From an uncultured Verrucomicrobiota bacterium (GTDB taxonomy: Bacteria; Verrucomicrobiota; Verrucomicrobiia; Limisphaerales; UBA9464): DNA of 39,552 nucleotides. Below the pieces are notes generated by a model that saw only the letters and a program-made list of their open reading frames with translations, was not told where the DNA came from and searched no databases. Every line of letters starts with the position of its first letter. Position 1 is the stretch's first letter. Position numbers and translations under genes: made by a program. Where the stretch lies: positions 1 through 39,552 of the forward strand of contig CAIWVP010000105.1 in assembly GCA_903916195.1 (NCBI GenBank), given 5' to 3'. This document shows, piece by piece, positions 30,196-33,963 of the stretch.

Positions 30196-33100
30196 ATGCC
30201 CCCGAAGGTCCTCGCCATCGCCATCGCCGCCGCCGTCGCCGCCGTCGTCGTCGCCGTTTGGGCCCGGGCCGATCCGTCCGTCACCGTGGTCCAAGGCGCG
30301 CCCGCGGGGGATGCGCTCGCAGCGCGGTCCCGGCTCCGCGTCGCGCCCGGGCTCAAGGTCGAGCTCTGGGCCGGCGAGCCGCTCGTGAAGGACATCACCA
30401 GTTTCTGCTTCGACTCCATCGGCCGCGCCTACGTCGTCGAGACCGGCCGGCGTCGCACCAGCGTGTTCGACATCCGCGGTCTCCAGCCGTGGCTCGATGA
30501 CGACCTGTCGTTCCGCACCGTCGCCGATCGTCGTGATTTCCTCACGCGCAAGCTCACGGTGGGCGACCCGGACCACGACCGGTTCCTCGCCGCGCTCACG
30601 AAGTCCGGCATCGGCGGATTCCGCGATTTCAACCAGGACGGGACCCTCGACGCCCGCGACCTCGACGTGGAGTCCGAGCGGATCCGGCTGGTCTGGGATT
30701 CCGACGGCGACGGACGCGCGGACTCGGCGACGACGTTCGCCGACGGCTTCACCAACCGCGTCGGCGGCGTCGCGGCAGGAATCCTCGCCCACGGGACCAA
30801 CGTGTGGTTCACCAGCATCCCCGACCTGTGGCGGCTCGACGCGAAAGCCGTCGGTCCGACCAGTGGGTCCGCAGGGGCGAAGGCAGATCCTGGCTCCACC
30901 GCCGGCTCTCCCGCCCGCTCGCTTTTGCTGACCGGCTTCGGCGTCCACATCGCGTTCGGTGGGCACGATCTCCACGGTTTGGTGAAGGGCCCCGATGGCC
31001 GCCTCTACTTTACCATCGCCGACCGCGGCTCCTCGGTGACCAACTGGGAGGGCAGGGTCATCTCGCTGCCTGACTGCGGCGCGGTCTTCCGCTGTGAGCC
31101 GGACGGTTCGGATTTCGAGGTCTTCGCCAAGGGCCTGCGCAACCCGCAGGAGCTGTGCTTCGACGACTTCGGCAACCTGTGGACCTGCGACAACAACGCC
31201 GATGGCGGCGACAAGGCGCGATGGACGCTCGTGCTCGAAGGCGCTGACTACGGCTGGACCATCGGCTGGCAATGGCTGCCGAAACTGGGCGCGTGGAACT
31301 CCGAGCGGCTCTGGCACACGCGCGAGAGCAACACCGCCGCGTACATCGTCCCGCCCGTTGCGCACATCGGCCACGGTCCGGCGGGCATCGCGTATTACCC
31401 CGGCACCGGATTGCCCGCGCGCTATGACCGGCATTTCTTCGTGACCGATTTCCCGGGCGGGTTGCGGACGTTCGCGGTCGAGCCCGACGGCGCGTTCTTC
31501 AAGGTCGTCCCGGAGCCCGGAGCGGACCTCGCCGGCCGATGGAAGGAGGACAACTCCGCGACCAACATGGTGGGCAAGGTCCTGTGGGACCTCTCGCCGG
31601 TGGACGTCGCGTTCCCGCCCGGCGGCGGCGTGACCATCGCCGATTGGGTCCAAGGCTGGGAGAAGACCGGCAAAGGCCGGCTCTGGCACGTCTCCGATCC
31701 CGCGCTAGCGAACGACCCGCTCATCGCCGAGACGAAACGCTTGCTCGCCGAAGGAGTGACGAAACGCGCCGAGAAGGAACTGCTCGCGCTGCTCGGGCAT
31801 CGCGACCAACGCGTGAGGCTGGAGGCGCAATGGGAACTGGCGGGGCGAGGGCTCGAAGGACGCAAGGCTTTGCAGACCGCGGCCGAGAAAGGGGCGGGTC
31901 TGGCCACACGGCTGCACGGCATCTGGGGCCTCGTCCAGGCGGTCAGGCAACGACGTGGCAGCGACCTCGTCCCGGAGTTGACCGGACTCTCCCTGTTGAA
32001 CGACCGCGAGCCGTTGGTGAGGGCAGCCGCGGCGCGACTTGTCGGGGCGGCCCGGTTGATCGAGGAGGAAGGCGCGCTGGTCCGGATGTTCGCTGACAAC
32101 GATCCCCGTGTGGCGGCCGCCGCTGTCGATGCGTACCGCGAGTGTCTGATGGGGTCCGACGGTCGCTCGATAGGCCGGCGCAAGATCCCCGCGCACTGGC
32201 TCCAGCGGTTGGCTCCGCTGATGCCCTCGTTTCTACGCCAGAAGATGCATGTCGAGGTTTTGCCGGACACCTTCGATTGGCCGTTGATCCAACTGGATGA
32301 TCTGCTCACGGGTGATGCCGGCGCCGAGCCGATGGTGCTCAATTCTGCGGCTCTGTTGATCGCCGAGTTCGGTCGGTCACTCGGCACCAACGTTCTCGCG
32401 ACGCTCCGGAGACGCTACGAGATAGCCGGCGGGCTGGCGGATGGCCCCGTGGGCCCACGACTCGCGCTGCTGCTCGCTCAGCGGCGTTTGGCAGACCCTC
32501 AGATCGCATCGTTCCTCGGTGAGAGCCGGCTGGATATCGCCCTCGAAGCCGCCCGCGCGATCAACGACGTGCCGATACCAGGAGCGATGGTCGCGCTCGC
32601 CGAGCTTGTCGGACCGGCATCGTTGGAACGACTGAGACGTCAAGCGGACGCCGATCCGTCGACACTGTCCTCACCTCTGCACCCTCCCGCCGGGAGGCCG
32701 GGTGATCTGACCGCGCCCTCCTCGACGACTCGGGCCGCTCAGGACTCTTCGATCGCGTCCGTGCCGCTGATCACGCCGGAACGGACACGCCCGTCCGAAG
32801 CGATCTCACCGGGAGGAACGGGCCGGGGCGAGGGCGGGTATCGTCCGCGGAGCCTCAATTTCACCCGCGACGAATGGCTCGCCTGGGTCCTGCGCCGCGC
32901 GGTGAACGCGAACTTCCGCCTCGGTGACGCCACGAACGCTGCCGCGCTCGGTGACTTCGCCGCACGGACCGACGCGCCAGAGAGCGTCCGCGTCGAGGCG
33001 CTCGAAGACCTCGCCGATTGGGCGAAGCCGCCGGGTCGTGACAAGATCGTGGGCCTTTGGCGTCCCTTGCCGCCGCGCGATCCGGCTCCGGCGCGCAGCG

Positions 33101-33963
33101 CGCTCGGCTCCGCCTGGAACGGGCTCGCAGCGGACACGTCCACGAATGTCGTGCTCGCCGCCGTCCGCGCCGGCGCGGCACTGGGCATCGACGCCTTCGC
33201 GGAGAAGTTGGCCGCGTTGCAGCGGCATCCTGACCCGTCGGTGCGCGCCGAGGTCGCGCGCTGGGCGGGAGCGGGCGCGCCGGCCGACGTGGCCGATCTC
33301 CTCGCTCGGCTCGACCGCGGCACGGTGGCCGAACGCCAGACCGCCTTCGCCGCGCTCGGTGGCGTGAAGGATCCGGCGGCGACGGACGCGCTGACCGGTC
33401 GGTTGCGTCAGCTCGTCGCGGGCAAGGTCGTCCCGGAACTTCAGCTCGACGTGTTGGACGCCGCGCGCCGGGCCGGGCTATCCCTCGCCGCGTGGACGAA
33501 CTCGCTGCCGAAGGAGGATCCGCTTGCGCCCTATCGCCCGGCGTTGGCCGGCGGCGATGCGGCGCGCGGGCGCAAGGTGTTCACCGAGCGGCAGGACCTA
33601 GCCTGCCTGCGCTGCCATAAGCTCCGCGGCGAAGGTGGCGAGGTCGGGCCGGAGCTCACCGGCATCGGACGCGCGAAGAGCCGCGAGTATGTGCTGCGGT
33701 CGATCCTGTTCCCCAACGCGGAGATCGCTGCGGGCTACGAGAACGTCGTGGTCACGCGCAAGGACGGCTCGGACGTGGCCGGTGTGCTGAAGTCCGAGAC
33801 CGCGACCGAGCTGGTGGTCGCATCGGCGGAGGACGGTCTTGTGACCGTCAAGAAGGCCGACATCGCGAAGCGCGAACGCGGTCCGTCGTCGATGGTCGAG
33901 GGCCTCGGCGACCTGATGTCGCTCCGCGAACTGCGCGACCTGGTCGAGGCCTTGTCGGAGTAG
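30196..33963 (+). CDS. PVC-type membrane-bound dehydrogenase with HEAT region and C-terminal haem domain
   Basis: The 1255-residue protein begins with a membrane/signal helix (MPPKVLAIAIAAAVAAVVVA). Residues about 45-520 form a beta-propeller like soluble sugar dehydrogenases (LRVAPGLKVELWAGEPLV, FNQDGTLDARDLDVE, GHDLHGLVKGPDGRLYFTI, RNPQELCFDDFGNLWTCDNN, IADWVQGWEKTGKGRLW). Residues about 520-1090 are HEAT-like repeats. The C-terminal haem domain (about 1110-1255) has CLRCHK with Cys1137, Cys1140 and His1141, followed by GEVGPELTGIGRAKSREYVLRSI. This is the architecture described as the Pirellula/Verrucomicrobium membrane-bound dehydrogenase/haem-binding family; the substrate is unknown. Residues about 826-882 are an odd Pro/Ser/Thr/Gly-rich insert that coincides with a palindromic repeat in the DNA (32671-32840). 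A smaller Gly/Ala/Ser-rich insert lies near residues 220-235. Confidence 0.93.
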   Translation: MPPKVLAIAIAAAVAAVVVAVWARADPSVTVVQGAPAGDALAARSRLRVAPGLKVELWAGEPLVKDITSFCFDSIGRAYVVETGRRRTSVFDIRGLQPWLDDDLSFRTVADRRDFLTRKLTVGDPDHDRFLAALTKSGIGGFRDFNQDGTLDARDLDVESERIRLVWDSDGDGRADSATTFADGFTNRVGGVAAGILAHGTNVWFTSIPDLWRLDAKAVGPTSGSAGAKADPGSTAGSPARSLLLTGFGVHIAFGGHDLHGLVKGPDGRLYFTIADRGSSVTNWEGRVISLPDCGAVFRCEPDGSDFEVFAKGLRNPQELCFDDFGNLWTCDNNADGGDKARWTLVLEGADYGWTIGWQWLPKLGAWNSERLWHTRESNTAAYIVPPVAHIGHGPAGIAYYPGTGLPARYDRHFFVTDFPGGLRTFAVEPDGAFFKVVPEPGADLAGRWKEDNSATNMVGKVLWDLSPVDVAFPPGGGVTIADWVQGWEKTGKGRLWHVSDPALANDPLIAETKRLLAEGVTKRAEKELLALLGHRDQRVRLEAQWELAGRGLEGRKALQTAAEKGAGLATRLHGIWGLVQAVRQRRGSDLVPELTGLSLLNDREPLVRAAAARLVGAARLIEEEGALVRMFADNDPRVAAAAVDAYRECLMGSDGRSIGRRKIPAHWLQRLAPLMPSFLRQKMHVEVLPDTFDWPLIQLDDLLTGDAGAEPMVLNSAALLIAEFGRSLGTNVLATLRRRYEIAGGLADGPVGPRLALLLAQRRLADPQIASFLGESRLDIALEAARAINDVPIPGAMVALAELVGPASLERLRRQADADPSTLSSPLHPPAGRPGDLTAPSSTTRAAQDSSIASVPLITPERTRPSEAISPGGTGRGEGGYRPRSLNFTRDEWLAWVLRRAVNANFRLGDATNAAALGDFAARTDAPESVRVEALEDLADWAKPPGRDKIVGLWRPLPPRDPAPARSALGSAWNGLAADTSTNVVLAAVRAGAALGIDAFAEKLAALQRHPDPSVRAEVARWAGAGAPADVADLLARLDRGTVAERQTAFAALGGVKDPAATDALTGRLRQLVAGKVVPELQLDVLDAARRAGLSLAAWTNSLPKEDPLAPYRPALAGGDAARGRKVFTERQDLACLRCHKLRGEGGEVGPELTGIGRAKSREYVLRSILFPNAEIAAGYENVVVTRKDGSDVAGVLKSETATELVVASAEDGLVTVKKADIAKRERGPSSMVEGLGDLMSLRELRDLVEALSE
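32671..32840 (+). repeat. Palindromic repeat element embedded in frame in the dehydrogenase gene
   Basis: The segment opens with CCTCCCG-C-CGGGAGG at 32683-32697 and is bounded by roughly inverted ends. The left end has a CACCTCTGCACCCTCCCG-type run followed by GGGTGATC. The right end has GATCTCACCGGGAGG followed by GGGCCGGGGCGAGGGCGGG. An internal GATCGC (32751-32756) is matched by GCGATC (32800-32805). It has no stop codon in the reading frame and adds about 57 low-complexity residues to the protein. It resembles CCCTC-rich intergenic palindromes common in GC-rich bacteria; that resemblance is from memory. Confidence 0.55.

Follow-up and report, generated by a model that had tools for sequence, protein, structure and literature searches.

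The question raised by this locus is how the gene for a haem dehydrogenase came to carry, in frame, a run of residues that its relatives lack. The window (the whole stretch of DNA that was analysed, 39,552 nucleotides) comes from a species represented by a single sequence only. A sequence-only reading had proposed that the HEAT region of the enzyme was interrupted by a mobile palindromic repeat. The gene and its relevant parts are as follows.

30196 to 33963, plus strand: the host gene, encoding a 1255-aa DUF7133/GSDH-type dehydrogenase with HEAT repeats and a C-terminal haem-c domain (open reading frame and Pfam).
30322 to 31650, plus strand: the dehydrogenase (DUF7133/GSDH) domain, residues 43-485 (Pfam match coordinates).
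32669 to 32838, plus strand: the in-frame insert of 56 residues (826-881), placed by the gap in relatives, the end matrix, the covariance model and codon usage.
33208 to 33408, plus strand: the HEAT_2 match, residues 1005-1071, 3' of the insert (Pfam).
33604 to 33618, plus strand: the haem-c attachment motif CLRCH, residues 1137-1141 (translation; the C, C and H columns are invariant in alignment A2).

The Pfam E-values for the host protein are 1.3e-17 (DUF7133), 8.8e-10 (GSDH) and 1.6e-7 (HEAT_2).

The insert is missing in all 19 of the related proteins that were aligned (chosen from 43 related loci), which have only a short variable loop at the site. The 19 include the proteins of two sister species, G006 and G007, which share 63-70% identity with the window protein in the parts that match; the gene of the same-genus genome G004 is likewise without the insert. 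The edges of the insert match the alignment gap, so that the clean edges looked for by the sequence-only reading are found, and the best boundaries begin 2 bases before the start it had given. The loop that remains in the relatives, being short and variable, fixes the edge only to within a few codons.

As first described, the interruption keeps the frame, contains no stop codon and is rich in Pro, Ser, Thr and Gly (55% of the 56 residues). In codon usage it is foreign to its host gene: the score is 0.07 in comparison with 0.36 ± 0.13 for windows elsewhere in the gene, of which 0.17% are as low. The GC content at the three codon positions is.68/.75/.75 in the insert and.72/.52/.84 in the gene; GC3 of the insert alone is unremarkable (14% of gene windows are as low). 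An AlphaFold2 model of residues 541-1255, built with 12 relatives (mean pLDDT 75.8), places residues 823-886 below 50 pLDDT as one coil between two helices, and the helices that follow this disordered loop are well predicted.

The insert contains the palindrome CCTCCCG-C-CGGGAGG (32683-32697) and both GATCGC and GCGATC, as had been noticed. The pair and the overall palindromy are no evidence on their own, because short inverted pairs are plentiful (11 of 7-13 nt in the insert stretch) and the fold is unexceptional: the whole stretch of 186 nt is no more stably folded than its dinucleotide shuffles (z = +1.08; 176 of 200 were equal or better). The roughly inverted ends that had been claimed are real in that both match the ends of a repeat family, but the palindromy of the whole is not beyond chance.

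This family was found with an end motif, GGGNGAGGGNNGGGGTGAGG, which was framed from the look of the insert ends and one related match in the window's own genome. With at most one mismatch it has 69 matches in G006 and 130 in G007, and the reversed-pattern control has none in either. At least one match is present in 25 of the 50 family genomes, some of them at control level. The matches in the sister genomes are mostly doublets of about 149 bp: there are 41 opposed end pairs in 40 stretches, 130-241 bp apart but mostly 148-150 bp. Three pairs of 217-241 bp were omitted, leaving 38 of the 41, whose 76 ends make up the end matrix (the window was left out); 34 of the 38 elements form alignment A1. 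Many end-motif matches also occur in family genomes G012 (64), G039 (42) and G011 (18).

The aligned elements form one family, built of CCTCACCCCGG, a hairpin, a centre with its own stem, a second hairpin, a TTA/TCA-type spacer and GGGTGAGG. Base pairs are preserved in 97% of the cells of the alignment and three pairs have changed on both sides. The outer arms occur in three matching types (GCCGTTCTC/GAGAACGGC, CCCTTCCC/GGGAAGGG and GCCCGC/GCGGGC), with pairing clearly above shuffles at positions 2 and 6. There is no consistent repeat that could be a target-site duplication other than these covarying outer arms. The conserved end is CCTCAC/GTGAGG, and a GTAG tag is absent from the alignment of 34 copies. 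In L155 (2690-2930) and L173 (2792-3032), one in each sister genome, a terminal hairpin of the doublet harbours a second palindromic repeat, about 90 bp long.

The repeat type is not new. BoxC, for which PIT and intrastrand triplex motif are other names, has been recorded in E. coli and in over 260 genomes (PMC4666352), and the sister-species family has the whole of its terminal motif, GGGAGAGGG-spacer-GGGTGAGG with the partner CCCTCTCCC. The 20-mer GGGAGAGGGCCGGGGTGAGG of G006 and G007 is contained in TM_ECO no. 1 in Table 1 of PMC4666352. In the A1 consensus one end shows CCCCGG, of type B, and the other a T-C/T-A spacer, of type A. The inverted doublets appear to join units of type A (TTA) and type B (CCG), which is also the arrangement at five E. 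coli sites described in that paper. An end of a sister element has a match in 5,359 of 5,426 E. coli genomes, with identity to the E. coli places of at most 97% over 35 bases.

Does the insert in the window belong to this family? It can be divided into three parts.

32669 to 32697, minus strand: the left terminal unit, with the tag CCTCACC and the hairpin CCTCCCG-C-CGGGAGG, stem pairing intact (end matrix; 3/17 motif mismatches).
32698 to 32808, plus strand: the centre, with no recognisable kinship to the sister-species centres.
32809 to 32838, plus strand: the right terminal unit, CCGGGAGGAACGGGCCGGGGCGAGG with the outer GCGGG and the type-B spacer CCG (end matrix; 4/17 motif mismatches).

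In spite of these mismatches the two ends are still the best in the window. Among 39,533 window positions the end matrix ranks the left end, at 32669, first (14.8 bits) and the right end, at 32814-32833, also first for its side (9.2 bits); together they score 24.0, whereas 40 Markov windows gave at most 15.4 (mean 1.7, sd 4.1). Neither end score is wholly independent of the original choice of the stretch, which was made partly for its inverted ends. The left unit retains its stem and tag, whereas in the right unit the C-rich partner strand of the hairpin is lost. The right end is of type B and the left spacer is unreadable. The outer arm GCGGG(C) at the right end is the same as in L159, L164, L165 and L176; the left outer arm is not complementary to it beyond four partly wobble pairs. 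A covariance model delimits the element at 32669-32833, with an E-value (5.27) that is not significant, and a whole-element nhmmer profile search of the window was not significant either (E 7.5). Similarity of the centre to the family was considered as evidence and rejected, since the best of 76 comparisons with the 38 sister elements reached a z of only 2.7. Judged by sequence, the ends of the insert are recognisable as BoxC/intrastrand triplex motif and the centre is not. Taken together, the data suggest that the insert is very probably a decayed inverted doublet of this kind that entered a loop of the HEAT region in frame.

The sequence-only reading had suggested a search for further copies inside and outside genes. 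Such copies are present in G006 and G007, where the bulk of the family lies, but the genome to which the window belongs has hardly any, and these few are weak. With the insert DNA as query, BLAST detected no further copy in that genome at E<0.01, and the end motif with at most one mismatch has two matches there in comparison with one for the reversed-pattern control. The left-end pattern has five matches and its reversed control four, so copies in this genome barely exceed noise. The right-end pattern with up to three mismatches has 85 matches against 35 in the control, mostly with three mismatches, and the covariance model gives 14 matches at E<=10, the best at 9.7e-4. A one-hairpin copy at G000:C80:25855-25874 (L080) lies in an hsdM-like ORF, where it is read as PLSALGGEGWGEV; it is a candidate insertion, and the PDB match stops short of the copy. 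A cluster of weak BoxC-like units is present at G000:C66:8008-8194 (L212), with no convincing gene around it.

In the sister species the repeat is found within genes. The stretches contain 70 non-overlapping family matches, of which 18 lie inside ORFs with at least 60 residues on either side. Pfam was run on 16 ORFs, supporting nine and leaving seven unsupported; the seven matches in ORFs without Pfam support and the other 52 were left out of the intragenic count. The supported hosts are a PepX-type hydrolase, an FtsX permease, a two-domain ABC ATPase, a PSCyt2/PSD1 protein, a CusA-like RND pump, the TPR/FG-GAP proteins of G006 and G007, a DUF7133/HEAT protein and a dehydrogenase paralogue of G007. 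Most of the in-frame copies are situated either between Pfam domains or next to one. The insert of the RND pump falls within query residues 160-200; at this point only four residues of CusA separate the aligned blocks on either side.

The G007 paralogue (1291 residues) is the closest parallel to the window gene. It carries a 132-bp family copy in frame in the corresponding linker (L165 3342-3473), while its orthologue in G006, 81% identical over the match, has no copy, and neither have the other relatives in the paralogue alignment except the window protein itself. In both enzymes the frames in which the ends are translated agree: PSPRPSPPGRG...SPSPGGEGRGEG in G007 against SSPLHPPAGRPG...AISPGGTGRGEG in the window. 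The two insertions are separate events, because the G006 and G007 orthologues of the window gene are empty. A short way upstream of these orthologues there are near-full-length doublets, at L213 8368-8512 and L214 3557-3703.

A one-hairpin form also occurs, with seven pattern matches in G006, 11 in G007 and none in the other 48 family genomes. At all seven Pfam-supported sites (L146, L149, L156, L160, L166, L167 and L171), in unrelated proteins, it is read as PSPLNGERAGVRGE or nearly so, and two of the sites are common to the 91%-identical orthologues L156 and L171 (G006/G007); the one-hairpin consensus has two further open frames besides PSPLNGERAGVRGE. This form bears on how the insert in the window was put together. 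Two separate one-hairpin insertions in the same loop, or one such insertion joined to unrelated DNA, would agree with the presence of single hairpins in frame in several genes, with the TPR/FG-GAP protein of G006/G007 that has two at different sites, with a window centre unlike the doublet centres and with the greater length of the insert (165 bp end to end in comparison with about 149 bp). The tags, however, point outward and, with their spacing, fit the architecture of a doublet, and the genic single-hairpin subfamily is read in a different frame, PSPLNGERAGVRG. We therefore consider this origin unlikely.

An element of the REPIN type, moved by a REP-associated tyrosine transposase (RAYT), is somewhat less probable still. 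REPINs, as described in PMC3116915, resemble the elements studied here in being inverted doublets of hairpin units around a variable spacer, and PF01797 genes are present in 47 of 50 family genomes. On the other hand, REPINs are described there as mainly extragenic and linked to RAYTs, whereas here the copy number of the repeat is not correlated with the number of PF01797 genes across the 50 genomes (Spearman 0.02, p 0.89) and a search of the surroundings of PF01797 genes in G000, G005, G006, G007 and G010 (13 stretches, each of 2-4 kb) gave no family copy. Neither the counts nor the neighbourhoods of PF01797 genes gave a link to a mobilising enzyme. That the repeat is mobile is suggested by its pattern of presence and absence.

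The least probable account is that slippage and drift, acting in a GC-rich genome, lengthened an ordinary low-complexity linker and that the palindromes arose by chance. This would suit the variation of linker length and sequence among paralogues, a fold no better than shuffles and a centre without relatives. It is opposed by two ends that match an independently defined family and are its best matches in 39.5 kb, by edges that coincide with the alignment gap, by a family copy whose identity is beyond doubt in the same linker of the sister-species paralogue and by codon usage foreign to the gene.

If the insert is a decayed doublet, its history can be outlined. A BoxC doublet, with two G/C-rich terminal hairpins and CCTCACC/GGTGAGG third-strand tags inverted around a variable centre, would have entered the variable loop between two helices in the HEAT region of the dehydrogenase, with a net gain of about 170 bp, a few bases of the loop included. 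The ORF would have stayed open because the end sequences have stop-free frames; for the same reason, and because the insertion was in a loop and its product is predicted to be disordered, the enzyme could tolerate it. The result would be a disordered Pro/Ser/Gly-rich linker that leaves the folded parts untouched. Later decay would have removed the partner strand of the right hairpin and the left outer arm while keeping the reading frame. We infer that the copying was transposition-like, that the insert came from the family as one doublet and that it was tolerated rather than useful. The step at the level of the protein is better supported than the DNA step, given the open frames of the ends, the position in a loop and the predicted disorder. 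The gap in relatives, the match of the ends, the foreign codon usage, the predicted disorder and the family copies inside other genes are observed, and the core of the sequence-only reading, a palindromic repeat absorbed in frame as a linker, is supported.

That reading had also called the element a GC-rich counterpart of the Rickettsia palindromic elements (RPE). This is borne out in behaviour, but the ends are those of BoxC, a repeat that had been described before. In-frame palindromic repeats have been described for Rickettsia and for Opitutus terrae (PMC3733652). As in RPE, a palindromic repeat is accepted in frame in several unrelated genes and adds residues to their products, and the orthologues of the window gene and of the G007 paralogue are empty; the phylum is another one, the repeat is GC-rich, and the likeness drawn here is one of behaviour. 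The O. terrae repeats are also verrucomicrobial, with REP dimers in ORFs that are considered possibly neutral in linkers and loops, but as described in PMC3733652 they are GTAG-tagged REPs of 20-40 bp whose dimers or groups encode 20-30 aa, whereas here a BoxC doublet tagged CCTCACC/GGTGAGG encodes 56 aa. The enterobacterial RU-1, RU-2 and RU-3 are likewise mobile repeats of small size (103-168 bp) that occur inside genes and have open frames (PMC2759123); they are MITE-like units, and we liken them by description.

For BoxC itself, PMC4666352 gives all 23 copies in MG1655 as intergenic, with five pairs that are inverted A+B doublets, reports no association of the MG1655 copies with mobile elements and ties such repeats to genome instability. 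Intergenic position is a property seen in that strain and no part of how the repeat is defined. In 25 of 5,399 E. coli records the matching place has no annotated feature under it, an observation of another reach than that of the paper, which takes in every MG1655 site. The copies described here differ in lying within ORFs and in frame, and the window copy differs from TM_ECO also in being diverged, with one hairpin broken. We found no report of in-frame BoxC copies in the open-licence PMC papers; the repeat and the in-frame habit are each known, and their combination was not found in print in that literature.

A broader reading can be offered tentatively, with the chances slightly against it: that a genus-level BoxC/triplex-motif lineage lives in genes, its one-hairpin form supplying the PSPLNGERAGVRGE peptide and its doublets linkers of 44-56 residues, so that it would provide proteins with interdomain linkers, selection acting on both frame and peptide, and that the window insert is a decayed example. 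The locus matters because members of the BoxC family, reported as always intergenic in E. coli K-12 MG1655, are here in frame at or near domain junctions, and because in a sister species the same loop of a paralogous enzyme has received an insert of this kind too. Since genic in-frame members and a parallel insertion in a paralogue are found here, the question whether palindromic repeats supply proteins with new linkers becomes testable outside Rickettsia by means of closely related verrucomicrobial genomes.
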